A DNA stretch of 20,661 nt, taken from positions 5,299-25,959 of the forward strand of contig QEUW01000190.1 of the NCBI GenBank assembly GCA_003577005.1, read 5' to 3'. Made by a program: the position numbers and the translations under genes. Below are positions 2,987 to 17,410 of the stretch, piece after piece. Each line of letters begins with the position of its first letter. The stretch's first letter is position 1. A model generated the notes under the pieces. That model was not told where the DNA came from, did not search any database, and saw only the letters and a list, made by a program, of their open reading frames with translations. Source of the DNA: Chloroflexota bacterium. GTDB lineage: Bacteria > Chloroflexota > Anaerolineae > Caldilineales > Caldilineaceae.

Positions 2987-4438
2987 ATGTCAGTTTTTAC
3001 CTATCTTCTGCTAGGTGCGGCGATCCTCCTCTTGTTGGGCGTGATCTCCAGCAAAGCATCTGGCCGGCTGGGCGTACCGGCTCTTTTGCTCTTTTTGGTT
3101 ATCGGCATGTTGGCCGGGTCGGAAGGCATTGGTGGGATCGAGTTTTCCGATGTCCATCTTGCGCAGAACCTCGGCGTGATTGCCCTCATCTTCATTCTCT
3201 TTTCCGGTGGGTTTGACACAGAGTGGGCGCGGGTTCGTCCCGTGCTGCCGCATGGTCTGGTGCTGGCCACGGTCGGTGTCCTGCTCACCGCTCTGTTGGT
3301 GGGTGTCTTTGCCATACTCGTCCTTGGCTTCTCCTGGCGGGCCGGGCTCTTGCTCGGCGCCATCGTCTCTTCCACGGATGCCGCTGCCGTCTTTGCCATC
3401 CTGCGTTCGCGGGGCGTGGGGCTGCGGGGCAGCCTCCAGCCGCTCATTGAACTTGAGTCGGGCAGCAACGACCCCATGGCCATCTTCCTCACCACGGCCA
3501 TGATTGGACTCCTCCTCGACCCTGCGGCCTCGGTTTGGGGGCTGGTTCCTATGTTCCTGATGCAGATGGTCGTGGGTGGCGCCGCTGGTTATGTGTTGGG
3601 GAAGGGCATGGTCTTTATCATCAACAGGCTGAACCTGGCCTATGACGGGCTCTACCCGGTGCTGACCATTGCCCTGGTCCTGCTGGTCTATAGCGTGACC
3701 GATCTGCTTGGCGGCAATGGGTTCCTGGCGGTCTATCTGGCCGGCCTGGTGGTGGGCAACACCTACGTCATCCATCGGCGGAGCCTGATGCGCTTTCATG
3801 ACGGCCTGGCCTGGCTGATGCAGATCGTCATGTTCGTGACCCTGGGCCTCCTGGTCTTTCCTTCCCGGCTGCTTCCAATCATCGGGATCGGCCTGGTCAT
3901 CTCGGCCTTTTTGATTTTGATTGCCCGTCCAGTCAGCGTCTTTTTGTGCCTCGTGCCGTTCCGGCTGAGCTGGCGCAAAATTGCGATGGTCGGGTGGGTG
4001 GGTCTACGGGGCGCCGTTCCCATTATCCTGGCTACGTTTCCCCTGATGGCGGGTGTCCCGCAAGCGGAGACCATCTTCAACCTGGTCTTCTTCATTGTGT
4101 TGACTTCGGTGTTGATCCAGGGCAGTACAATTCCTCCGGTTGCGCGGTGGCTTCATGTTTCAGCGCCCATGCGCTTGCGCCCGCGCTCGCCCCTTGAATT
4201 CGAATCCACCAGCGGGGTTCGCGGGGAACTCGTTGAGCTCGAACTCCCTGAACATTCAACAGCAGTCGGACGGCGCCTTGTCGATCTAAGGTTGCCGGGA
4301 GGGGCGCTGCTTGTGCTGATTGGCCGGGGTGAAAGCTTCATTGTCCCCAGCGGGAGTACTACACTGGAAGCCGGTGATGTTCTGCATCTCTTGGCCGATC
4401 ACGAGGCTTTAACACAAGTCAAAGAGCGGCTCCGGTAG
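2987..4438 (+). CDS. nhaP2: K+(Na+)/H+ antiporter, CPA1 family, NhaP2 type with TrkA-C domain
   Basis: This 483-residue protein exchanges cytosolic K+ or Na+ for protons across the inner membrane. Residues 1 to about 395 form 12-13 membrane helices of the sodium/hydrogen exchanger fold. The key acidic positions of the CPA1 family are present: [10 protein letters not shown] (Asp131) and ELESGSNDP (Glu157, Asn161, Asp162). A second arginine-rich membrane block, [17 protein letters not shown], is also typical. Residues about 410-483 ([15 protein letters not shown] to the end) resemble a TrkA-C/RCK-C ligand-binding domain as in NhaP2/CvrA. E. coli NhaP2 is longer, about 578 residues, because of an extra C-terminal domain that is absent here. 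The ATG has only a weak Shine-Dalgarno sequence. It stands alone on the plus strand, with no coding partner. Family assignment is strong; the preferred cation cannot be read from the sequence. Confidence 0.88.
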
Positions 4439-6916: not shown

Positions 6917-7035
6917 GTGTACTGACAAATGAAGTTAGGTCATGCAATCCAGGTGCAACGCACTTTGTCAAGTGCGTTGCACCTCCCGGCGGCTACCCAA
7001 CTTGATTTGTCAATACACTTGATTTGTCAATACAC
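6917..7035. mobile_element. MITE-like element with nested inverted repeats
   Basis: The 19-bp end at 6917-6935 matches the inverted complement of 7017-7035 with only two mismatches (core TGACAAAT). The right end is tandemly doubled, with a 17-bp unit at 7000-7016 and 7017-7033. A perfect 15-bp hairpin (6951-6965 with 6970-6984, loop TGTC) lies inside. GTAG occurs directly on both sides (6913-6916 and 7036-7039), as a possible target duplication. No transposase is encoded. It could be a non-autonomous transposon or a dispersed palindromic repeat. Confidence 0.6.
6951..6984. terminator. Perfect 15-bp hairpin inside the MITE-like element
   Basis: The arms pair perfectly around the 4-nt loop TGTC. 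Lying between convergent operons, it may help end transcription from both sides, although there is no T run. Confidence 0.45.
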
Positions 7036-7094: not shown

Positions 7095-7445
7095 CTACTC
7101 TTGTTGTACCTCTGCCCGCAGGGCATCGCGTCCCATCTCATCATATTTGAGGACAAATTTCTCTGCCGGGGTGGCGACGCGATAGGCGGCGCGCGCCATG
7201 GCGGTCGTGGCAATCGGTCCGGTAATAAAAAAGAGGATCACCAGCACGATCATGCGGGCTAGATAGTCGGGGTAATAGATCCCCGCCGCGATCATCAAAC
7301 AACTGATGCCCATAGTGGCAGCCTTGCCAAAGGCGTGCATCCGCATAAAGACATCTGGCAGCCGCCACACGCCAATGCTGCTGAGCAACATGATCAGCAC
7401 GCCAATCGTAGCTACGGTCAAGGTTGTCCACTCCTGCACTTCCAT
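7095..7445 (-). CDS. mrpG: Na+/H+ antiporter subunit G
   Basis: This 116-residue inner-membrane protein has three membrane helices and is the last subunit of the Mrp (Mnh) complex. Family signatures are GVWRLPDVFMRMHAFGKAATMG and a following helix pair ending ITGPIATTAMARAAYR. MrpG is a small accessory subunit near the cation path. The ATG at 7445 has GAGG 6 nt upstream; the preceding GTG at 7448 is less well placed. It is separated from mrpF by 155 bp that contain a palindromic repeat, whereas the other genes of the operon overlap or nearly touch, so its expression may be uncoupled from the rest. Confidence 0.9.
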   Translation of the reverse strand: MEVQEWTTLTVATIGVLIMLLSSIGVWRLPDVFMRMHAFGKAATMGISCLMIAAGIYYPDYLARMIVLVILFFITGPIATTAMARAAYRVATPAEKFVLKYDEMGRDALRAEVQQE

Positions 7446-7492
7446 CACAAACCTCGCTTTCCTATCCTAAACCGGACCAGCCGGAGCTCACA

Positions 7493-7600: not shown

Positions 7601-7876
7601 CTACTCCTCATCTTGCGCCTGCTCCAGATAGCGCGCCAGCAAGACCGTCCCCAAAAAGCCGAGCACCGCTGTCACAAGCGCAATGTCGAGCAATGGCGGC
7701 GCGTCATGGCGGATGGCGATGAGCGCCACCAGACCCACAGCGTGCAGCGCAATCAGGTCGAAGGCCACGGTGCGGTTTGGGACATCCGGCCCGATGGTGA
7801 GCCGGACAAAACTGAGCGCAAACGAAAGCGTTAGCAAAACAAGCAGTACACCGATGCCAATAGCAAAGGGGCTCAT
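7601..7876 (-). CDS. mrpF: Na+/H+ antiporter subunit F
   Basis: This 91-residue protein has three membrane helices. FVRLTIGPDVPNRTVAFDLIALHAVGL is the MrpF/PhaF signature, followed by LDIALVTAVLGFLGTVLLARYLE. The ATG at 7876 has a perfect AGGAGG 6 nt upstream, so the TTG at 7882 is not used. It overlaps the end of mrpE by ATGA. MrpF is one of the small subunits that join the large MrpA and MrpD parts of the complex. Confidence 0.92.
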   Translation of the reverse strand: MSPFAIGIGVLLVLLTLSFALSFVRLTIGPDVPNRTVAFDLIALHAVGLVALIAIRHDAPPLLDIALVTAVLGFLGTVLLARYLEQAQDEE

Positions 7877-8460
7877 CCCCAACCTCCTCGCGTGACCAGC
7901 GACAGCCGCCGCTCGAACATCTCTCTGACCTCATGCCGGAAGTGGTCGGGGTCCTTGACCACAAAGCTGTGTACGTAAAGGATATTTTGGCCGTGGTCAT
8001 CCTGGCTCAGGTCGATGCTGACCGTCCCCGGCGTCAGCGTAATGACCGTCGCCAGGATGATGATCTCCAGGTCAGTGTCGATGGAGAGGGGAACCGCTAC
8101 AATCCCCGGGCTAAACTGGGGCCTCGGCTGCAAAATCCACCACGCCAGCTTGGCGTTGCTGACGACAATTTCCCACAATACAAAACCGATAAACGAGAGG
8201 AGCCACCAGATGCGCTGCCCATATGCCCGCTCATAGACGGTCAACGCCAGCGCACCCACAGAAAAGCCCACCAGATAATCGGGGGCGCCAAAGACCGGCA
8301 GAAAGATATACCAGAGGATCGCCAGGCTGATGTTGACCAACAACAGCGCGATCACTCGCTGGTTTTCGCGCTGCGTCATCGGGGGCAGATGCACCGGGCG
8401 CGCCGCTCTTTCCTTCTCCTGCTCGTAGACGGCTATCGTGCTGGAATTGTCCCTTGTCAT
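7873..8460 (-). CDS. mrpE: Na+/H+ antiporter subunit E
   Basis: This 195-residue protein carries a hydrophilic N-terminal tail of about 30 residues. Membrane helices follow (VIALLLVNISLAILWYIFLP and others), then a cytosolic domain with VITLTPGTVSIDL, a hallmark of MrpE. The C-terminal stretch HSFVVKDPDHFRHEVREMFERR is also usual. The ATG at 8460 has AGGA close upstream. A second in-frame ATG at codon 28 (MTQRENQR) would give a protein nearer the usual family length, so the true start is slightly open. There are 27 nt between it and mrpD. Confidence 0.9.
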   Translation of the reverse strand: MTRDNSSTIAVYEQEKERAARPVHLPPMTQRENQRVIALLLVNISLAILWYIFLPVFGAPDYLVGFSVGALALTVYERAYGQRIWWLLSFIGFVLWEIVVSNAKLAWWILQPRPQFSPGIVAVPLSIDTDLEIIILATVITLTPGTVSIDLSQDDHGQNILYVHSFVVKDPDHFRHEVREMFERRLSLVTRGGWG

Positions 8461-8487: not shown

Positions 8488-10071
8488 CTACTCATTCCCG
8501 GAAATCGCCCCTGTCTCGACCATGCCAATCCCATCACCTGGGTTGACTGCCTGGATATAGCCGCTGCGATCCAGCGCCTGGGCCGCAGCGACGCTCGACC
8601 ACTGAAAGAATGGAGCGCTAAAAATGCCGATCGCCAGGCTGACAGCCACCAACAGACCGATCGGCGCCACGGTCAACCACCCACCCGGGTTGCAAGTCGT
8701 GGCCGGCCCTAGTGGCCCTTCGAGTGGGCCGGCAAAGCCCTTCTGCCACAGACGCACCATGCTCATCAAGGTCAACAAGCTGACCACTAGGCTCACCGCC
8801 GCAATGGTCCACTGGCGAGCGTCCAGCGCAATCTGCAACAGCCCAAGCTTGCTGATAAAACCGCTTGACGGCGGGATGCCCGCCAGCGAAAAGGCTGCCA
8901 CAAAGAAGACAATCGCCAACATCGGGTAGCGTTTGACCAGCCCGCCCAGATGGCCCGGCTGCAACTGCCCCGTCCCCATAGCCAGTTCGGCGGCGCCGCC
9001 GGCCATAAGCAGCGCTGTTTTGACGATCATGTGGTGGACGATGTAAAAGATGCCAGCCGCCATGCCAAACCCTACCGCCATCTCGTTCCCGGCCACGGCC
9101 AGCCCTAATCCCATGACCATATAGCCCACCTGGCTGATCACATGAAAACTCAGCACCCGGCGGATCGTGTCTACCGCCATGGCGCCAAAGACACCCACCA
9201 ACATGGTGAGCCCGGCAATCGCCAGGATGAGCGGCTGCCAGCCGGCCAACAGGTCGGGAAAGAGTAGCGGGTAGATGCGAAACAGGGCATAGATGCCCAC
9301 TTTGGTCAGCAGACCGCCAAAGATGGCCGTCACAGCCGGGTGTGGCGTGTGATAGCTCGCCGGCAGCCAGAAAAAGAGGGGAAAGAGTCCGGCCTTGCTC
9401 CCGTAAGCGATCAGCAACATGCCGGCCAACACGATGCGCAGCGACTGCGGCGCCATCTCCATGCGGTCTGCCAGTTGCGCCAGGTTGAGCGTGCCCAGCG
9501 TGCCGTAGGCGACACCGGCCGTGGCCAAAAAGATCATCGAGGCCAGCAAATTCAATACCACATAGCGTGTCCCGCCGTTTACCTGCGATGGCCGGCCACC
9601 CAGGCTGAGCAGGACAAAGCTCGACATGAGCAACACTTCAAAAAAAACATAGAGGTTGAAGAGATCGCCCGACAGAAAGGCGCCGTTGACACCCACCAAC
9701 AGAAAGAGCAGCAGCGGGTAAAAATTCATTGCCTCGCGCTCGTCCAGCGTCCCCATGGCATACCAGACTGTAGAGACCATGAGCAACCCGGTCAACGTCA
9801 GCATGATGGCGCTCAACCCATCGCCGACCAGGGTGACGCCAAAGGGCGCCTGCCACATCCCCACATATAAAACCAGGCGGTGGCCGCTGCCCGCCGTGAC
9901 CGCCAGCAACAACAATGCCACCAGCAGATTGATGCTCGTAGCTGTCACGGCCAACACCCGGTGGACCAGCAATTGCTGCGGGCGTGGCCTTGTCACCACC
10001 AGCAGACCCAGCGCCGCACAGACCAGCGGAATGACAATCGGTGCAGCCAGCCAGTTTGCGTTCAGACCCAT
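8488..10071 (-). CDS. mrpD: Na+/H+ antiporter subunit D
   Basis: This 527-residue protein has about 14 membrane helices and is related to the NuoM/NuoN proton-pumping subunits of respiratory complex I. The charged residues of this fold are visible: FFEVLLMSS (Glu145), GSKAGLFPLFFWLPASYHTPHP (Lys226) and GGLLTKVGIYALFRIYP (Lys257). It is one of the two large ion-translocating subunits of the Mrp antiporter. The ATG at 10071 lies one base after the mrpC stop codon. Length matches the family, about 490-530 residues. Confidence 0.95.
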   Translation of the reverse strand: MGLNANWLAAPIVIPLVCAALGLLVVTRPRPQQLLVHRVLAVTATSINLLVALLLLAVTAGSGHRLVLYVGMWQAPFGVTLVGDGLSAIMLTLTGLLMVSTVWYAMGTLDEREAMNFYPLLLFLLVGVNGAFLSGDLFNLYVFFEVLLMSSFVLLSLGGRPSQVNGGTRYVVLNLLASMIFLATAGVAYGTLGTLNLAQLADRMEMAPQSLRIVLAGMLLIAYGSKAGLFPLFFWLPASYHTPHPAVTAIFGGLLTKVGIYALFRIYPLLFPDLLAGWQPLILAIAGLTMLVGVFGAMAVDTIRRVLSFHVISQVGYMVMGLGLAVAGNEMAVGFGMAAGIFYIVHHMIVKTALLMAGGAAELAMGTGQLQPGHLGGLVKRYPMLAIVFFVAAFSLAGIPPSSGFISKLGLLQIALDARQWTIAAVSLVVSLLTLMSMVRLWQKGFAGPLEGPLGPATTCNPGGWLTVAPIGLLVAVSLAIGIFSAPFFQWSSVAAAQALDRSGYIQAVNPGDGIGMVETGAISGNE

Positions 10072-10072
10072 C

Positions 10073-10549
10073 TCAGTTGTTTCCTTCTGTCTGCTGGCGG
10101 AAGACTACATCCTCCAGCCATTCATAATCTTCTTCGACTGGCCGCAGTTGTGACCGCGGTTGCAAGGCAAAGGGGTCGTCGGTGCGCTCGGCAGAACTGT
10201 CACGTGTCGTCTCCAACGAATGGCGCCGGTTGATCAGTGCGATAAAGAAGGCGATGATCCCAAAGCTGATGACGATAGCAGTCAGGATCAACGCCTGAGG
10301 TAGTGGATCGACAAACTGTTCCAGGTACTGGTTGAGCTCTAACTGGCTGGTGTCACCTTCGAAGAATGCCTTTTCGAGCACCGGCGGGTGGCCGCGGCGA
10401 CTCGCACCGGTGCCAAAGAGCAACAGGTTGACCCCGTGGGTAAAAAGCCCCAGCCCCAGCACCATACGAATCGGGCTACGCTGGAGGAGCAGATAGGTTC
10501 CCGCTCCCATCAGTGCGCCAACTAGACAGGCCAGCACGAGTGCGATCAT
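10073..10549 (-). CDS. mrpC: Na+/H+ antiporter subunit C with C-terminal extension
   Basis: This NuoK-like subunit has three membrane helices in its first 115 or so residues, with SPIRMVLGLGLFTHGVNLLLF and DPLPQALILTAIVISFGIIAF as signatures. Its 158 residues exceed the usual 113 or so. The extra 40-45 residues form an acidic, polar tail (DDPFALQPRS, VEEDYEWLEDVV) that should face the cytosol; its role is unknown. The ATG overlaps the mrpB stop (ATGA), and GGAGAG lies 5 nt upstream. Confidence 0.93.
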   Translation of the reverse strand: MIALVLACLVGALMGAGTYLLLQRSPIRMVLGLGLFTHGVNLLLFGTGASRRGHPPVLEKAFFEGDTSQLELNQYLEQFVDPLPQALILTAIVISFGIIAFFIALINRRHSLETTRDSSAERTDDPFALQPRSQLRPVEEDYEWLEDVVFRQQTEGNN

Positions 10550-10971
10550 CGTTGCTCTCCTTCCGATGGCCGGCTCAACTCCAACAAATAGGAGGTGACC
10601 ACCGCGCTTACAATCAAAAAGACGCCGATATCAAAGAAGGTAGGCGTTCCAAATTCCAGCGTAAAGGCGCCCAGCGAAATATACCACCAGACTCCGGTCA
10701 GAACGGCGCCCCCAGATATGCCGATCAGCGCCGCCGCAACGGCAATGACCAATCCCACCCCCATCACCGGTTGTAGATAGCGGCCAATCAGGTCACGGAC
10801 AAACTCGTGGCCACGGGCGAGAATCTGCATCAAAAAGGCCGTTGCCACCACCAGACCGGCAATAAAGCCGCCGCCGGGTTCGTTGTGCCCCACCAGCAGC
10901 AACACCACCGCCAGCACCAGAAGCACCGGCGTGAGGATGCGGTCGAGCAGCGAGAGATATAGATCAGGCAT
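10546..10971 (-). CDS. mrpB: Na+/H+ antiporter subunit B
   Basis: This 141-residue MnhB-domain protein has four membrane helices. DRILTPVLLVLAVVLLLVGH and NEPGGGFIAGLVVATAFLMQ are strong family motifs, as is LEFGTPTFFDIGVFLIV near the end. The ATG at 10971 overlaps the 3' end of mrpA by 8 nt and has AGGAGAG upstream, which shows tight co-translation. It is a separate gene, although mrpA carries its own C-terminal MbhD/MbhE-like region. Confidence 0.93.
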   Translation of the reverse strand: MPDLYLSLLDRILTPVLLVLAVVLLLVGHNEPGGGFIAGLVVATAFLMQILARGHEFVRDLIGRYLQPVMGVGLVIAVAAALIGISGGAVLTGVWWYISLGAFTLEFGTPTFFDIGVFLIVSAVVTSYLLELSRPSEGEQR

Positions 10972-13417
10972 GAGGTCTCTCCTCAGTCACGGTCGATGGG
11001 AGAGGCGGTGGCGTCGCCAGCGGCGCGGCATCAGTTGCCCGATCACCTGCGCCATCGACCCCCGGGCTACTTGCGGTGTGGGCCGGCCGATGTAGAGGGT
11101 GCAAGCGCGAAGCGCGCAACAGTGCATAGCCACCTACCGCCGCCACCACCAGAACGGTGATCTCGCCCAGCGTATCGATGGCGCGGAAATCAACCAGGAT
11201 CACATTGACGACGTTGCCGCCGTGGGCCGCCGGTACGGCATTGCGCAAAAAGAAATCGCTGATCGGCAGCGCAAAGGGCGTCTCGGCGGCCAGCAATACC
11301 ATGCCAAACCCCCATAGCCCAACCGCTCCGGCGATCACGATGTGATGGATGGCGCCGCGGCCATACGCCTGGGGATGGGCGCGGTGCGGAATGCGATAAA
11401 AGACCAGCACCAGCAACACCACCGTCAGCACCTCGATCAACAACTGGGTCAAGGCTAGGTCCGGCGCCGAGAAGAAGACAAAGATGAGGGTCACCACAAC
11501 ACCCACCAGGCCCAGGCTGATGATCGCACTCAGCCGGCTCCGTGTCCGCACAGTGACAAGCGCAGCCACTACCGCCAGCGTCGCCAGCACGACCTCGTAA
11601 AAGGTCGGTGTCGCCGCCCATTCCGTGCGCAGGTCGCCAATAAAGTTGCTACTCAGAGCCGAATAAAACAGGAAGGCGACCGCCGCCAGCAACGTCACAC
11701 TGATCTGCGTGGGGAAGGAGGTTCCCTGCACCGTACGCGTGCTCCAGCCGGCCAGCGCATAGAGGCCATCGGCGGCGCGGTCAAAGACTTGGGTGCCGTT
11801 GAGCCATTCGGGCGCCAACGTAAAGAGCGCCCGCACCCGCTCTCGCACCAGAAAGATCACAACCCCAATGCCGATGGCCAGCAAACTGGTCAGAAAGACT
11901 GGTGTCAGCCCATGCCACAACAGCAGATGAACTTCGACCGGTGCGCCGAGGATAGCGGCAGCCGGCGGTGCAAAGAGGTCGTGCTCCACAACGCTGAGCA
12001 GAAAGGGGATCACCGCACCGATCAACGTCAAGATGAGCACCGGCAGGACAAACAACACCGGCGGCGCATGATGGACGTGCGCTTCATCAAGCGGTGCACG
12101 GCGTCGCAAAAATGGCTCCCATATCAGGGTAAGGCTGTAGGCCACAAAGAGGGCCCCACCCAATACTGAGGCCACCAACCCGATCCAACCAACAAGGATG
12201 TCGCCCGCGCCGATAAACCCGTAAAAGTTCTCCAGGAGCGTCTCTTTGGCAATAAAACCAAAGGTGGGCACCAGCCCGGCCATGGAGAGACCGGCTAGCA
12301 GCGCCGCTGCCGCCACCAACGGCATCGCCCGCGCCAGGCCGGCCAGCCGGCGAATATCGCGCGTCCCATTAGCGTGGTCGATGATCCCCGCAACGAGGAA
12401 GAGCGGACCCTTGTAGAGCGCATGGGCCAGGATCCCCAACACCACAGCTACGGCCGCGGTCTCGATGGTGAAAGCCAGCAGCATGACCAGCACCCCCAAC
12501 TGGCTGACGGTGGCATGGGCGAGGATCGCTTTCAGGTCATAATAGCGGAGCGCGCTGGCGGCCCCCAACAGCATGGTGACGCCGCCCACCAAAAAGAGCG
12601 ACCAGAACCAGAGCTGGCTTTCGGCAAAGGCCGGGTGCAACCGCGCCAGCAGGTAGACTCCTGCCTTGACCATGGTCGCCGAATGGAGATAGGCGCTGGC
12701 CGGCGTGGGCGCAGCCATCGCGCCCGGCAACCAGAAATGGAAAGGGAATTGCGCCGATTTGGTAAAGGCGCCCAATAAGATCAGCATCAGCATGGGGGTA
12801 AAGAGCGGGTGGCTGAGGAAGGTAGTAGCCGGCTGGGCCAGCAACCCGCTGATCGCATAGGTCCCCCCCATCTGGGCTAGTAAGACCATGCCGCCCAACA
12901 TCGCCAGCGCACCCAGACCAGTGACAACCAGCGCCCGTCGCGCGCCCTCCAGCCCATTCTTGTCGGATAATTTGAACGAGATGAGCAGATAGCTGGTAAT
13001 GCTTGTCCCTTCCCAAAAGACATAGAGGGCCAGCAAGTTGTCAACCCACACCAATCCCATCATGCTGGCCATAAAGAGAAAGAGCAGGGCGTAAAAATAG
13101 CCAAGCCCTGGGTCATCCTCAAAATAATAGCCAGCATAAATGGCAATAGCTGTCCCGATCCCGGCGATGATCAGGCCAAAAAAGAGGGCAAGGCCGTCCA
13201 AGCGCAAATCCAGGGTTAGACCAAACGCATCCGACCAGATGTATTGTTCGGCGAGGATAGCGCCGTGGCCGATGGGGGCGAGCTGTGTAAGCAGCCACCC
13301 CGTCACTAGCGCGGGGGCGACAGCGGCGAGCCAGCCGGCATGTCGCCAGCGGTGCGGGCGCAGCAGCCAGAGCACCGGCCCGGTCAGCGCCAGGAAGGCA
13401 AGTGAGGCGATCAGCAT
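10964..13417 (-). CDS. mrpA: Na+/H+ antiporter subunit A, first gene of the mrp operon
   Basis: This 817-residue protein has about 20 membrane helices and is related to NuoL of complex I. Residues about 60-140 hold the N-terminal antiporter domain (DLRLDGLALFF, VFWEGTSITSYLLI with Glu136). The core transport domain has TKSAQFPFHFWLPGAM (Lys220) and MVKAGVYLLARLHP (Lys251). Residues about 600-770 carry DUF4040/MbhD- and MbhE-like modules (IFVFFSAPDLALTQLLIEVL and VNVILVDFRAIDTLGEI). The final 45-50 residues are a Pro/Ala-rich hydrophilic tail. The ATG at 13417 is chosen: the upstream in-frame TTG at 13504 would put an 18-bp duplication in the coding region. Transcription appears to start near 13764 and pass a riboswitch-like leader. 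Together, mrpA-G exchange cytosolic Na+ for protons and support alkali and salt tolerance. Confidence 0.93.
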   Translation of the reverse strand: MLIASLAFLALTGPVLWLLRPHRWRHAGWLAAVAPALVTGWLLTQLAPIGHGAILAEQYIWSDAFGLTLDLRLDGLALFFGLIIAGIGTAIAIYAGYYFEDDPGLGYFYALLFLFMASMMGLVWVDNLLALYVFWEGTSITSYLLISFKLSDKNGLEGARRALVVTGLGALAMLGGMVLLAQMGGTYAISGLLAQPATTFLSHPLFTPMLMLILLGAFTKSAQFPFHFWLPGAMAAPTPASAYLHSATMVKAGVYLLARLHPAFAESQLWFWSLFLVGGVTMLLGAASALRYYDLKAILAHATVSQLGVLVMLLAFTIETAAVAVVLGILAHALYKGPLFLVAGIIDHANGTRDIRRLAGLARAMPLVAAAALLAGLSMAGLVPTFGFIAKETLLENFYGFIGAGDILVGWIGLVASVLGGALFVAYSLTLIWEPFLRRRAPLDEAHVHHAPPVLFVLPVLILTLIGAVIPFLLSVVEHDLFAPPAAAILGAPVEVHLLLWHGLTPVFLTSLLAIGIGVVIFLVRERVRALFTLAPEWLNGTQVFDRAADGLYALAGWSTRTVQGTSFPTQISVTLLAAVAFLFYSALSSNFIGDLRTEWAATPTFYEVVLATLAVVAALVTVRTRSRLSAIISLGLVGVVVTLIFVFFSAPDLALTQLLIEVLTVVLLVLVFYRIPHRAHPQAYGRGAIHHIVIAGAVGLWGFGMVLLAAETPFALPISDFFLRNAVPAAHGGNVVNVILVDFRAIDTLGEITVLVVAAVGGYALLRASRLHPLHRPAHTASSPGVDGAGDRATDAAPLATPPPLPSTVTEERPHA

Positions 13418-13423
13418 GAGTGG

Positions 13424-13459
13424 TACATCATCCTTGCGTATTACATCATCCTTGCGTAT
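13424..13459. repeat. Perfect 18-bp tandem duplication carrying the mrpA ribosome binding site
   Basis: The 18-bp unit occurs at 13424-13441 and 13442-13459 with no mismatch. On the mRNA strand each copy contains GCAAGGATGATG, so the AAGGA Shine-Dalgarno-like sequence is present twice. The proximal copy lies about 13 nt from the mrpA ATG, a slightly long spacing. Confidence 0.7.
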
Positions 13460-13506
13460 AAGGTGATCTGCGCCGGTGACAGGCAAATCCAGGCCACGAC
13501 GCAAAC

Positions 13507-13604
13507 AAAAAAGCGAAACCGCCCGGCGATACTAGGCGAATGTGTCCCCCTATCCTCGGTGAACCAGGACACAGTGCGTCAGTAAAACGTCGCGGCGGTC
13601 TCGC
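13507..13604 (-). terminator. Conditional terminator in the mrpA leader
   Basis: On the minus strand, GCGAGACCGCC (13604-13594) pairs with GGCGGTTTCGC (13523-13513) over 11 bp with one G-U pair, and TTTTTT (13512-13507) follows directly. A nested 7-bp hairpin (13541-13547 with 13567-13573) brings the arms together. The 5' arm is also the 3' strand of the upstream aptamer, so the two folds exclude each other. Bound aptamer would favour readthrough into mrpA, 90 nt downstream. Confidence 0.65.
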
Positions 13605-13698
13605 CAGTGGTGTCAAAAACCTGTACGAGCAACCGGGGGCGGCTTCCCGAACTGACGGTCACTCGCCTTGCGGCTGCAAGTGGCTACTCCCCGATCCG
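13593..13698 (-). promoter_or_regulatory. yybP-ykoY-type riboswitch aptamer upstream of mrpA
   Basis: On the minus strand the conserved blocks of the yybP-ykoY class appear in order: GGGGAGTAGCC (13692-13682), a hairpin with a GCAA loop, ACCGTCAGTTCGG, and GGCGAGACC (13605-13597). The outer stem P1 pairs CGG-AT-CGG (13698-13691) with CCGCCG (13598-13593), with a 2-nt bulge. Known members bind Mn2+ and switch genes on; the E. coli alx member also responds to alkaline pH. Aptamer size, about 106 nt, is normal. It lies about 66 nt after the predicted transcription start. Assignment rests on conserved motifs recalled from the class, not on a covariance search. Confidence 0.72.
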
Positions 13699-13770
13699 TA
13701 TGATATCGAGCCCTCAATTCATGTGCGACAGGTGCTTGCAAACATCAATGCTCTCTATCATCTTGGCCCG

Positions 13771-13799
13771 ATGCTAACAAAATGCAATGCCGTTGTCAA
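13771..13799 (-). promoter_or_regulatory. Sigma70-like promoter of the mrp operon
   Basis: On the minus strand TTGACA (13799-13794) and TAGCAT (13776-13771) are spaced by exactly 17 bp. Transcription would start near 13764, giving a leader of about 347 nt that contains the aptamer and terminator. It lies between the stop codon of the BTAD regulator and mrpA. Confidence 0.65.
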
Positions 13800-13854
13800 A
13801 ATAACGGCGCGCCGATCTCCTTTCTGGAGCGCACCCGTAGCCGTAAACTTTGCC

Positions 13855-13891
13855 TGCGCCACCGGTATCAAAATCTGACCGGCCAGGCGCA
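13855..13891 (-). terminator. Stem-loop after the BTAD regulator gene
   Basis: TGCGCC (13855-13860) pairs with GGCGCA (13886-13891), and inner ACCGG pairs with CCGGT across an asymmetric internal loop. It sits 37 bp past the regulator stop codon and before the mrp promoter. There is no T run, so termination is only a suggestion and some readthrough into mrp is possible. Confidence 0.3.
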
Positions 13892-13927
13892 AAATGCTTG
13901 GAATCAGAGAGGGGCTGGCAAACGTGC

Positions 13928-16900
13928 TCAAGCGGGAAAGCGGGCCAGGGCTGCCGACAACTCGGCGCCGGCTGCATCCAATCCCATGGCCTGAACTTGA
14001 CGGAGTGTCGTCTCCAGCAGCTGTTCGATGGGCGCGCCTGCCGGTTGTAACTCGGCAATCACCAACAAGGTGTCGATGTACTCCTCCAACAGGCTGCGGT
14101 GCCCGGCAAAGCGGAGCGCCTGGCGTAACAGCGCCGCAGCATGATCTGCATCTTGCCGCAGGTGGGCCAATCGAGCTAGCCCCAGCAGTGCCTGTACGTG
14201 CGTGTAGGGATAGAGGTTGACGGCATCGGCCAGCGCCTCTTCTAATAGCCGCTGAGCCCTTGCATCATCACCGCGGTAGAGCGCAACCAGCCCAAGCCCG
14301 ATCTCTGCGCTATTACGGTGATTTCGAAAGGCAGGTCGTTGGTCGAGCAGCGCCAGCGCTCGCTGCAGACGGCGCTCGGCTTCATCGATCCGCTCCTGTT
14401 TCAATGAGAGAAATGCACTGCCGATGCGTGGCCAGAGGCTCGCCCGCTCCGCTGCCATACCCTGGATGGCTCGGTTGAGGAGGATGCTCCGCTCGTTGAG
14501 CGCGTGGCTCTGTTCCCAGTGGCCGAGAATTCTGGCTGCCACGGCCAGTTGGTAGTAGGCGGTAGCAGCAATCGAAGCTTGCCCTGTCTCATTCGCCAGT
14601 TCGACCACCGCTTCGAGGCAGTGGGTCGCCTCGGTTAGTTGTCCCTGCACCAGCAGCGTCCAGCCATAGTCGAGCAGCGGCAACACAGCGTGGACCCGGT
14701 CGAGCGTCTGCAGGATGTCGGCCAGAGGGTCAGCGACTGTGGGCGGTGGAGGCGAATACGCCGACCATGTGGGCGCTGTTTCGGGTGGGTCGGCACTGTA
14801 GATCCGCCGGCGCCGCTGGTACAGATCCTCAATGACCTGCGACCGCTCTTCGGCGCGCCCGCCCTCCGCCAGCGTTGTCATCAACTCGCGCAAAAGTTTG
14901 TTGCTCTCGCCCTGTTGGCCGAGGAGACCAAGCATCGAGGCCAACCGGCTGTAAGCCGTGAGCATCAACAGGCGGTCACCCTGGCGCTGGCCCCACTGGC
15001 GTAACCGCTGGTAGGTGTCGGTGACGCCGGTGGGGTCGAAGAGGCTCTCATAGGCTCGTCCTCGTCCCTGCAAAGCACGGGCGACCCATACAGCTTCGTC
15101 GTCGGGGCGCTTCTCCAACACGGCCAGCGCCTGGTCAAAATAGACAACTGCGGGCTGAAAGCCGTAGGCTAGCAGTGACTTTTCGCCGGCAAGCACGCTG
15201 TACTCGACAAAGGCTGGCTGTGACGCCGCGCCTGCCTGACCGTAATGAAAGGCGATCTCGGCGGGGCTATCGTAGCCGCGCCCCAGGGCGACCAACGCGT
15301 CCGCAACCTGACGGTGTAGCCGGCGGCGTTGCAGGGCCGGCATTGTCTCGTAAGCAACCTGACGCACCACCTGGTGGCTGAACTCCAGCCGCTCATCGGG
15401 GCGTTCGACCAGAAACTGGCGGCGCAACAAGATTTCGAGACCGGTCATGGGGTCAGTGGGCGTAGCATTCTCCAACAGGTCGAGGCTAAAATCGCGGGCA
15501 ATTACAGCGCTCAACTGAAGCACCCGCTGAGCTGGCTCGGCCAGCCGTCCGATCCGTTCTGAGATGATCTCTTGCACCCGTTGGCTTGGGCGCAGCAGGG
15601 GCGACCCCTCGTCGAGGAGCTCGCCGCCCTTAGTGGAAGATTGGTGGCGCTCCTGCCAGTCGCGCAGCGTCTCCGTAACAAAGAGAGCGTTACCGCCCGT
15701 GGCCCGGTGCAATGCTCCTGCCAGCGAGGTCAGCGTCTGATTCTCGGCACCAGTCACGGCTGCGACCAGTTGCGCCACCTCGGCGGCTGTCAGCCGTTCG
15801 ACCCCAATCACCTGGTGGCGGCGCTCGCGTTTGAGGGCATGGAGCAGAGTGGCCAACGCCTCGTTTTCGCTGAGATCGTCGCTCCGGTAGGCAAGTAGAA
15901 CCGCAAGCGGCATCTCATCCAGCCTTGCAGCCAGACGGCTCAGCACAGCCAGCGTGCCGGCATCGGCCCAGTGCAGGTCATCGATAAAGAAGACCAAGGG
16001 CCGCCGGCTTGCCAATGCCGCCAGCAAGGCGGCGATTCCCGCGACCAGGCGTTGGCGGTTTTCGTCGCTGCGTACCGGCGCCTCATGTGGTGAGAGTGGC
16101 AGATCCGGCAGGCGGTCGGCCAGGCTGGGCACGATCTGTGCCACCTGCGCCAGGCTGGACGACGGCAGGCTAGCGAGCACATCATCCGGCAGCCCATGAA
16201 GATAGCGCGAAAGGCTATCAGCAAGGGGGGCGAACGGCAGTTGCCGCTCCGACGGCTGGCAGGCTGCGCTGAGGACGGTGGCGCAGGCTTCACCCGCAAT
16301 CTTTAACAGTTCATAAGCCAGCCGGGTCTTGCCGGCGCCGGTTTCACCTGCCAGGAGCGTCAGGTTTCCGTGACTGGAAAGCGCTCTCTGCAACCGGGCG
16401 GCTGCCTTTTCCAGTTCGTTTTGGCGACCGGCAAACAGATCGGCAAAATAGGCGTCGAACACAGGCAGCACAGTCTGCTGTGGCAACAACGCCGGCACGC
16501 GTGGCTGGGGGGGAGTAGCCACCCTGGACAAGGTTACGGTGGCGGGCGCCGGTGATGGAACTGCTGTGAGGGCGCGTGGCTGCACCTCGCCGTTGAGGAT
16601 CCGCTGGTGCCAGCGTTGGGTGAGCGGGCTGGGGTCTGCGCCCAACTCTTCGGCGAGCACAATCCGGCAGCGTTCGTAGGTGAGCAGGGCGCCCGCGCTG
16701 TCACCGGCCTCGGCTTGATAGCGCATGAGAGCTTGATAGGCGTTTTCGCGCACCTCGTCGCGCGCCAGGATACGCCGGCACGCGGCCAAAGCGGCGTTGA
16801 GGTTCCCCAGGTCAGCCTGGATTTCGGCGAACTGGAGTAGAGCGGTAAAATAGCGTTCACGGAGCCGTTCGCGTTCGTTTTGCGCCCAGTCTGCATAGGG

Positions 16901-17410
16901 GTCGCTGATGAGATAGTCGTCCTGGTAGAGCGCGATGGCCTCTTCCAGCAGCCGTTGGCGTTCAACCGCATCGGTGCTGGTCTCCGCCTGATTTAACTTT
17001 TGTTCGAATATATCCACATCCAGCCAGAGCGTTGAGTCGGGGCGAAACGCGTACCCTGGCGTCTCGGTGACAATATAGATGGAGGGGGCGCGGTTACGGC
17101 GTTCTGGCTCCAGCACGTTGCGCAAGGCATTGATAGCGCTCCGTAAGGTTGTTGCGGCAGCGGACGGGCTGCTTTGCGGCCAGAGCAACTCGATCAGCCG
17201 GTCGGTAGCGACGGGTCGTGGTCGCTCTGTAATGAGGATTTTAAGCACCTGCCGCGCCTGGCGCGTGTGCCAATCTCCCTCGCTGACAGCCTGCTGGTCA
17301 CGTACGACCTGGAGCGTACCGAGTGTTGAGATACGAATATCGTGTTGCGGGGCGCCATTTGTGGCGGCTGATCTGGGCATGAAACCAAAAGGGCGGGGAC
17401 AAGAGAACAT
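13928..17410 (-). CDS. BTAD-domain transcriptional regulator with AAA ATPase and TPR region
   Basis: This 1160-residue cytosolic regulator belongs to the SARP/AfsR-like class common in Chloroflexota and actinobacteria. Residues about 24-125 form an OmpR-type winged helix (ISTLGTLQVVRDQQAV, RLIELLWPQSSPSAAATTLR, and YIVTETPGYAFRPDSTLWLD). Residues about 130-275 form the BTAD helical domain. After a Pro-rich linker an AAA_16/STAND ATPase follows, with Walker A GETGAGKT (355-362) and Walker B LVFFIDDLHWAD (472-483). From about 700 to the end are TPR-like helical repeats. No LuxR domain is seen. The target genes are unknown; its promoter overlaps that of the divergent secreted protein gene, a likely target. 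The ATG at 17410 has GGGGAAG very close upstream; Met11 is an alternative start. Confidence 0.88.
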   Translation of the reverse strand: MFSCPRPFGFMPRSAATNGAPQHDIRISTLGTLQVVRDQQAVSEGDWHTRQARQVLKILITERPRPVATDRLIELLWPQSSPSAAATTLRSAINALRNVLEPERRNRAPSIYIVTETPGYAFRPDSTLWLDVDIFEQKLNQAETSTDAVERQRLLEEAIALYQDDYLISDPYADWAQNERERLRERYFTALLQFAEIQADLGNLNAALAACRRILARDEVRENAYQALMRYQAEAGDSAGALLTYERCRIVLAEELGADPSPLTQRWHQRILNGEVQPRALTAVPSPAPATVTLSRVATPPQPRVPALLPQQTVLPVFDAYFADLFAGRQNELEKAAARLQRALSSHGNLTLLAGETGAGKTRLAYELLKIAGEACATVLSAACQPSERQLPFAPLADSLSRYLHGLPDDVLASLPSSSLAQVAQIVPSLADRLPDLPLSPHEAPVRSDENRQRLVAGIAALLAALASRRPLVFFIDDLHWADAGTLAVLSRLAARLDEMPLAVLLAYRSDDLSENEALATLLHALKRERRHQVIGVERLTAAEVAQLVAAVTGAENQTLTSLAGALHRATGGNALFVTETLRDWQERHQSSTKGGELLDEGSPLLRPSQRVQEIISERIGRLAEPAQRVLQLSAVIARDFSLDLLENATPTDPMTGLEILLRRQFLVERPDERLEFSHQVVRQVAYETMPALQRRRLHRQVADALVALGRGYDSPAEIAFHYGQAGAASQPAFVEYSVLAGEKSLLAYGFQPAVVYFDQALAVLEKRPDDEAVWVARALQGRGRAYESLFDPTGVTDTYQRLRQWGQRQGDRLLMLTAYSRLASMLGLLGQQGESNKLLRELMTTLAEGGRAEERSQVIEDLYQRRRRIYSADPPETAPTWSAYSPPPPTVADPLADILQTLDRVHAVLPLLDYGWTLLVQGQLTEATHCLEAVVELANETGQASIAATAYYQLAVAARILGHWEQSHALNERSILLNRAIQGMAAERASLWPRIGSAFLSLKQERIDEAERRLQRALALLDQRPAFRNHRNSAEIGLGLVALYRGDDARAQRLLEEALADAVNLYPYTHVQALLGLARLAHLRQDADHAAALLRQALRFAGHRSLLEEYIDTLLVIAELQPAGAPIEQLLETTLRQVQAMGLDAAGAELSAALARFPA

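Follow-up and report, generated by a model that had tools for sequence, protein, structure and literature searches.

In the yybP-type riboswitch of L. lactis, Mn2+ stabilizes a weak helix, P1.1, whose 3' segment otherwise builds a terminator (PMC11087558, PMC6754395). The mntP and alx leaders of E. coli respond jointly to Mn2+ and alkaline pH; the mntP leader is reported to bind Mn2+ with a Kd of 2.4 µM at pH 8.5, about 41 at pH 6, and about 53 µM at pH 6.8, which is 17- to 22-fold tighter at alkaline pH, and Mn2+ stress alkalizes the cytosol (PMC9603457). The Na+-I riboswitch (DUF1646 motif), whose target genes include some that are annotated as Na+/H+ antiporters, is a separate RNA made up of two base-paired parts, P1 and P2 (PMC9337991). 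The Mrp of Thermomicrobium roseum, a thermophile counted with the Chloroflexota, is reported to perform Ca2+/H+ antiport and no monovalent antiport; no other Mrp of this phylum is named as tested in the passage of the review concerned (PMC5703873). Full-text literature searches on mrpA, Chloroflexi/Chloroflexus, and calcium sodium antiporters, short of the gene lists of the two 2015 discovery papers, found no description of a yybP-ykoY switch controlling mrp, in agreement with the earlier note on this DNA, which knew of no such case; the available portions of PMC9337991, PMC4342826, PMC11477304, and PMC9495176 name no mrp target. Within that literature, what is new here is mrp as a target and a recurring switch-CaCA-mrp arrangement, CaCA being the Na+/Ca2+-exchanger family.

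The DNA analyzed, called the window below, is a stretch of 20,661 nucleotides from a member of the Caldilineaceae (Chloroflexota). We confirmed the observation of a promoter-like site, an aptamer, and an overlapping terminator ahead of an mrpABCDEFG operon. From the sequence, we put at roughly 80% the probability that this leader (13799-13507, minus strand) is a Mn2+ riboswitch that turns mrpABCDEFG on at the level of transcription, with Mrp as part of a Mn2+-efflux regulon. The E. coli mntP and alx leaders control an exporter and, in the case of alx, a TerC-type protein, whereas the target in the window is mrp. The window leader and the L. lactis yybP-type riboswitch share the L1 letters GGGGAGUAG. 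Both also have an L3 of the form UCA-N-U-UC with its invariant adenosine (PMC6754395) and a weak P1 switch helix with a 3' strand shared with an intrinsic terminator (PMC11087558). Unlike the L. lactis type, the window leader lies below Rfam detection and precedes mrp, with no known Mn2+ exporter or TerC gene as its target, and it is predicted to be transcriptional, in contrast to the translational riboswitch of E. coli mntP (PMC11647493). The CaCA-mrp operons of other Chloroflexota carry the same aptamer subtype with mrp downstream.

Architecture of the leader and its mrp operon

The TTGACA-17-TAGCAT promoter that had been proposed from the letters is in place (Table 1); it is the sole promoter-like site found by a consensus scan of positions 13300-14000, against a mean of 0.2 in shuffles, and TG precedes its second hexamer. 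The aptamer then reads, on the minus strand, GGGGAGTAGCC from 13692, a CTTGC-AGCC-GCAAG hairpin, CCGTCAGTTCGG, and GGCGAGACC, and each of the motifs that had suggested a yybP-ykoY-type element, the GCAA hairpin included, is present. Its parts are an L1 strand GGGGAGTAG, P2 (CTTGC/GCAAG), P3 with L3 CGTCAGTTC, a weak fourth arm (P4), and the 3' strand. In the aptamer fold the partners of this last strand are GCC and GG, both on the L1 side; in the fold of the whole leader its partner is the 3' arm of the terminator. The aptamer's last strand thus doubles as the terminator 5' arm, and the expression platform competes with P1, as in the yybP-ykoY class.

Table 1. Features of the mrp leader and operon in the window
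Feature	Position	Strand	Description or basis
Sigma-70-type promoter	13771..13799	-	TTGACA 13799-13794, 17 nt, TAGCAT 13776-13771; consensus scan 10/12
Predicted yybP-ykoY (Mn2+) aptamer	13590..13701	-	Hold-out covariance model R1, isolated-aptamer junction fold, subtype covariation
P1 3' strand GGCGAGACC, common to aptamer and terminator	13597..13605	-	Sequence
Intrinsic terminator	13507..13604	-	5' arm GCGAGACCGCC 13604-13594, 3' arm GGCGGTTTCGC 13523-13513, T-run 13512-13507
mrpA	10964..13417	-	817 aa; Proton_antipo_M, MbhD, MbhE (Pfam)
mrpB	10546..10971	-	MnhB, Pfam PF04039
mrpC	10073..10549	-	Oxidored_q2, Pfam PF00420
mrpD	8488..10071	-	Proton_antipo_M, Pfam PF00361; NCBIfam MrpD models match below their cut-offs
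mrpE	7873..8460	-	MNHE, Pfam PF01899
mrpF	7601..7876	-	Pfam PF04066 on open frame 7601-7882; ATG at 7876
mrpG	7095..7445	-	Pfam PF03334 on open frame 7095-7448; ATG at 7445

The two terminator arms form 11 bp, including one G-U pair, with six T immediately after, and the terminator alone folds at -43.6 kcal/mol. The overlapping terminator had been claimed earlier in the same terms; it is also the fold of the whole leader and is conserved in the closest relative. The whole leader folds at -80.1 kcal/mol freely and at -66.7 kcal/mol with the aptamer P1 forced, which argues that aptamer P1 and terminator are mutually exclusive. The isolated window aptamer folds into the expected multi-arm junction. 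Folding energies were no better than those of dinucleotide shuffles (z 0.19 for the aptamer and -0.81 for the leader), so that energy alone proves nothing.

The operon downstream had been taken for mrp, an identification borne out by Pfam matches on all seven products; mrp as the target of the switch is supported by the recurrence of the switch before CaCA-mrp operons. The seven genes A to G include separate mrpA and mrpB, which we take to define group 1 of Mrp (CPA3). NCBIfam MrpA models match MrpA below their cut-offs, TIGR01300 matches MrpG over its cut-off, and the mrpA start codon (ATG at 13417) coincides with the start in the closest relative. Elsewhere in the window, a second cation/proton exchanger gene (Na_H_Exchanger with TrkA_C; 2987-4438, plus strand) lies near the mrp operon on the opposite strand, a large BTAD/AAA/TPR transcriptional regulator gene (13928-17410, minus strand) precedes the leader in the same orientation, and a short unit, GTGTATTGACAAATCAA, is tandemly repeated at 7000-7033, just 3' of mrpG.

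Assignment to the yybP-ykoY class

The earlier note had named a match to Rfam RF00080 as its own check, and this failed: the window gave no match at gathering or relaxed thresholds. No Rfam family reached its gathering score in the window, the Na+-I (DUF1646) motif, which has an Rfam entry, included. Matches to Hammerhead_II, leuA-Halobacteria, and HOTTIP_3 (E values of 1.8, 4.2, and 0.77) and a c-di-GMP-II-GAG match overlapping the aptamer of the closest relative, genome G539 (14.7 bits, E 8.4), were taken as chance. RF00080 reached only 14.3 bits (E 0.11) on the G539 leader, which, with the lack of a match in the window, points to insensitivity of the model to the Chloroflexota subtype. On two other Chloroflexota aptamers it gave 28.7 bits (before CaCA) and 23.9 bits (before a P-type ATPase) against a cut-off of 45; among 14 control genomes it produced matches in five, two of them above the cut-off, and among 301 Chloroflexota genomes in 18, with one over the cut-off and at least three that look false. 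In the printed alignments the GAGACC strand sits in an unpaired part of RF00080, and the model seems not to represent this strand as paired.

A covariance model, R1, was built from ten Chloroflexota aptamers of one subtype, with the window and G539 left out. The training aptamers had been detected by RF00080 ahead of genes for CaCA, P-type ATPase, or TerC proteins, family names that were checked in Pfam on five of the neighboring proteins. R1 scored the window at 13701-13590 (minus strand) with 68.8 bits (E 5.8e-19 over 31,990 bases). For the G539 leader the score was 91.6 bits (E 8.1e-26), and the next-best match in those 31,990 bases had an E value of 0.17. This second match (window 16501-16527, plus strand; 10.7 bits) spans 27 bases without aptamer arms opposite the regulator gene and was rejected. 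The R1 alignment of the window contains only two non-standard pairs. The conserved core letters are all found in the window: GGGGAGUAG in L1, CGUCA in L3, which includes the invariant adenosine that binds Mn2+ in this class, and the GAGACC strand. The window also has both GGGGAGTAG and CGTCA, present in 93 and 102 of 103 R1 matches, respectively.

At an E value of 0.01 or less, R1 matched in 89 of 400 Chloroflexota genomes versus the 18 of 301 for RF00080, in samples and with filters that differ, an indication that a good part of the yybP-ykoY class in this phylum escapes the Rfam model. Six RF00080 matches (L154 to L157, L160, and L162) sit upstream of GDT1/UPF0016 genes (one of the six proteins, at L157, checked in Pfam) and form a second subtype that was deliberately kept out of R1, which scores these aptamers at 24.9 to 36.9 bits. 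One further RF00080 match (L127) is outside the R1 model, and three (L164, L167, and L168), which have no conserved aptamer and resemble protein-coding DNA, were excluded from both model and census.

The MrpA of G539 is 74 to 75% identical to that of the window and the closest among the genomes searched, and the promoter, aptamer, and terminator are all kept ahead of its mrpA. Two metagenomic relatives of MrpA (P0002 and P0003) stand at 86% and 84% identity. Its promoter is TTGACA-17-TACCAT (spacing counted by eye), and the stretch from promoter to aptamer can hardly be aligned between the two. Within the aptamer, the end of P3 has been rebuilt on both sides (GGG/CCC in one and GGAGC/GCTCC in the other), the P2 stem is the same, and the lower part of P3 carries one-sided changes with one mismatch in G539. 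L3 reads UCAGUUC in the window and UCAAUUC in G539, the single difference coming after the invariant adenosine; the G539 form is the L. lactis L3 (PMC6754395). The 5' arm of the terminator is identical, and the 3' arm changes from GGTTTCGC in the window to GGTCTCGT in G539, one-sided changes that keep the pairing. At its energy minimum (-34.7 kcal/mol) the isolated G539 aptamer adopts a fold other than the junction; with P1 forced, the energy is -32.4 kcal/mol.

Covariation was assessed in two alignments, both fitted to R1, so that their figures favor structure. The first comprised 20 aptamers from mrp loci (18 linked to mrp and two back-to-back neighbors); it had 97.8% of its cells paired and double changes in 18 of 25 pairs (shuffled mean 14.1, with 18 reached in 1 of 500 shuffles), and its covariation score, fitted as it was to the model, was 0.676, a value reached by none of 500 shuffles; the shuffled score was 0.251, and sliding gave no more than 0.143. 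In the second, of 103 R1 matches (100 distinct) fitted in the same way, 96.2% of cells were paired, double changes occurred in 21 of 25 pairs (shuffled mean 17.8), and the score was 0.679 versus 0.225 shuffled. The junction of P1, P2, P3, and P4 (weak in the window) is thus found together with compensatory changes. Judged by its sequence, the leader RNA belongs to a known class even though RF00080 misses it; the original assignment to yybP-ykoY is upheld by the hold-out model, the conserved G539 leader, the compensatory changes, and the recurrence of the aptamer before CaCA-mrp operons in 16 genomes.

Distribution across the Chloroflexota

Genes downstream of the aptamer were surveyed in a census of 115 places, drawn from 100 of 118 and 13 of 14 R1 matches together with locus L082 and the window, places fetched twice being counted once. 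The 18 matches left out of the 118 included five above 57 bits (those of G646 and G495 and the second matches of G323, G351, and G502), and one of the 14 order matches (G160, E 0.0098) was also left out. Genes were named by BLAST against our own reference set, in which the labels of the proteins had been checked in Pfam. TerC was the first recognized gene in 47 places and a P-type ATPase in another 47; CaCA came first in 13 and mrp in two, and the remaining six had another gene or none. TerC and P-type ATPase genes are known targets of the yybP-ykoY class; the window leader does not precede a known Mn2+-homeostasis gene, its target being mrpABCDEFG. mrpA follows CaCA in 11 of the 13 CaCA places, and five further CaCA-mrp loci came from scans of the class sample, outside the census. 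The mrp loci under the switch therefore number 18: 16 further genomes with the order aptamer, CaCA gene, mrp, and two, the window and G539, in which the switch directly precedes mrp. In the CaCA-mrp operons one or two CaCA genes, and in two genomes an M50 protease gene as well, lie between switch and mrpA.

The earlier note had also asked whether other Chloroflexota mrp leaders conserve the element; this holds for G539 and the 16 CaCA-mrp genomes and fails for most mrp operons. Among the 249 genomes of the class sample, 74 had MrpA at an E value of 1e-100. R1 matched in 30 of these (19 of 40 and 11 of 34); in nine the switch preceded mrpA in the same orientation, one of them (G047) with mrpA cut at a contig edge, and no match was found upstream of mrpA in the other 65. 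A general rule linking the switch to mrp was rejected on this count. In the order of G176, R1 matched in 12 of 46 genomes, G539 among them; 33 of the 46 had MrpA at an E value of 1e-200, and 32 of these showed no match at mrp, leaving G539 as the only one with the switch. R1 found only G539 among 52 mrp loci (with flanks of about 1.5 kb in most) and gave no match at an E value of 0.5 or less among 79 mrp loci, most from other phyla; such absences carry lower confidence, since many genomes are in broken contigs and only part of the first-look candidates was scored. The T. roseum mrp genes, which lie on a megaplasmid and encode an MrpA 42% identical to that of the window, had no R1 match in the surrounding 49-kb stretch, for which the gene table, itself incomplete, lists no CaCA gene.

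Of the 71 MrpA proteins placed in a tree, 15 came from CaCA-mrp loci; the partial MrpA of L163 was left out, and where a locus had two MrpA-like genes the copy closer to the window was used. Switch-linked MrpA fell into three clades, each with support of 100: seven CaCA-mrp proteins with one Chloroploca protein (L007) whose mrp lacks the switch, eight CaCA-mrp proteins with a long MrpA, and the window with G539. The 15 CaCA-mrp proteins, 39 to 44% identical to the window MrpA, are thus in clades other than its own. Descent of the window mrp operon from CaCA-mrp operons was unsupported, its MrpA being in another clade, although the deep forks are weak (SH-aLRT 79). The same weak forks do not distinguish gains from losses of the switch, and there may have been one gain of the switch-mrp link plus losses. 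Since the aptamer precedes mrp or CaCA-mrp in these genomes and the known targets TerC and P-type ATPase elsewhere, Mrp, as read from genome sequence, is a predicted member of the Mn2+-riboswitch regulon, and this in three clades of the MrpA tree (17 genomes and the window).

Several other arrangements of the aptamer were observed. G539 has a second R1 aptamer (L215, 7048-6926, minus strand) ahead of a CaCA gene apart from mrp, and mrp was not found behind that gene in the 6.9 kb read; the CaCA and mrp halves of the module are in this genome each under their own copy of the switch. Tandem R1 aptamers, each before its own TerC-like gene, occur at L220 (G549; 7351-7215 and 6043-5872, minus strand) and L307 (G561; 7725-7614 and 6518-6411, minus strand). 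Back-to-back aptamers occur at L227 (134-242, minus, and 360-474, plus) and at L161 (1160-1270, minus, and 1741-1856, plus), the latter with a TerC-like gene on one side and CaCA-mrp on the other. At L248, L316, and L317 the first gene encodes an M50 protease with a CBS domain (by Pfam for L248 and L316 and by similarity for L317), followed at L316 and L317 by CaCA and then mrp. At L299 and L308 the aptamer precedes a gene for a CitMHS/ArsB-superfamily-like transporter and then a second membrane-protein frame of similar size; the L299 protein also resembles the magnetosome transporter MamN, below the cut-off. The remaining cases are a lamin-tail-domain protein gene (L300) and P-type ATPase genes preceded by a putative zinc metallopeptidase gene (L310) or a VTT-domain protein gene (L278).

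Predicted ligand, switching, and role of Mrp

The expression platform resembling that of L. lactis and the letters of L3 lead us to predict Mn2+ as the ligand and activation as the sign of control. Without Mn2+, GCGAGACCGCC would pair with GGCGGTTTCGC, and the hairpin with its six U would halt RNA polymerase and leave mrp silent. With Mn2+ docking L1 and L3, P1 would retain the GAGACC strand, the terminator would be blocked, and mrp would be transcribed. By analogy with E. coli mntP, Mn2+ is probably bound more tightly at alkaline pH. Reuse of the aptamer strand by a terminator was scanned in the 111 of 121 aptamer entries in which the GACC strand was present with no fewer than 80 nt beyond it: an arm for GACC followed by a T-rich stretch was present at 56 of the 111 loci versus 0.34 expected from simple base shuffles. 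The overlap occurred in 13 of the 18 mrp-linked loci, including the window and G539, and was missed at the other five (L151, L158, L313, L314, and L315).

A riboswitch of the same fold could have come to respond to Ca2+, to another metal, or mainly to pH. This would suit Mrp as a salt and pH system, the T. roseum Mrp reported as a Ca2+/H+ antiporter (PMC5703873), a Streptococcus member of the class reported to bind Ca2+ as well (PMC9495176), and the match of the CaCA proteins to a 'calcium/sodium antiporter' model. We consider it unlikely, however, as the mrp-linked aptamers have the same core letters in L1 and L3 as those before TerC and P-type ATPase genes, and the frequency of GGGGAGTAG and CGTCA among all R1 matches, with both in the window, gives no sign in the core of a new ligand. 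Somewhat less probable still is a passive leader, decayed from an ancestral CaCA-mrp or TerC operon and no longer in control of mrp. The lower R1 score of the window relative to G539, the weak fourth arm, and the failure of Rfam to find the window would fit such decay, but all core letters are kept, the R1 alignment has no more than its two non-standard pairs, and aptamer and terminator are conserved at 74 to 75% MrpA identity while the neighboring stretch has diverged. Chance motif matches ahead of a terminator or attenuator of the ordinary kind, for which the missing Rfam match and the unremarkable folding energy might speak, can practically be dismissed given the hold-out E value of 5.8e-19, the conservation in G539, and the covariation of the subtype.

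If the leader is the Mn2+ riboswitch that we favor, several roles for Mrp may be considered. Since Mrp imports protons, mrp under the switch would counter the alkalization of the cytosol by Mn2+, and Mrp would probably re-acidify the cytosol when Mn2+ or alkali causes stress. Ion gradients are what CaCA exchangers run on, so that Mrp could support them; with CaCA under the same switch, it would most likely restore the ion gradients spent by exchanger-type Mn2+/Ca2+ efflux. The Ca2+/H+ antiport of the T. roseum Mrp raises the further idea that Mrp itself may expel a divalent ion. It is possible, if rather doubtful, that the riboswitch-controlled Mrp exchanges divalent cations (Mn2+ and/or Ca2+) for H+ and so acts as a seven-subunit Mn2+ exporter induced by the ion that it expels, and that CaCA-mrp is a two-pump version of a Mn2+/Ca2+ detoxification module.

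The Mrp complexes studied earlier move monovalent cations, and one Chloroflexota Mrp is reported to move Ca2+ (PMC5703873). With the predicted Mn2+ switch ahead of mrp, a complex-I-like multisubunit antiporter hitherto associated with the control of salt and pH would enter the Mn2+-riboswitch regulon. As a proton importer, Mrp would also provide a physiological setting for the joint response of the class to Mn2+ and alkaline pH, and a Mn2+ sensor ahead of mrp would give a direct hypothesis for the purpose of some Mrps.
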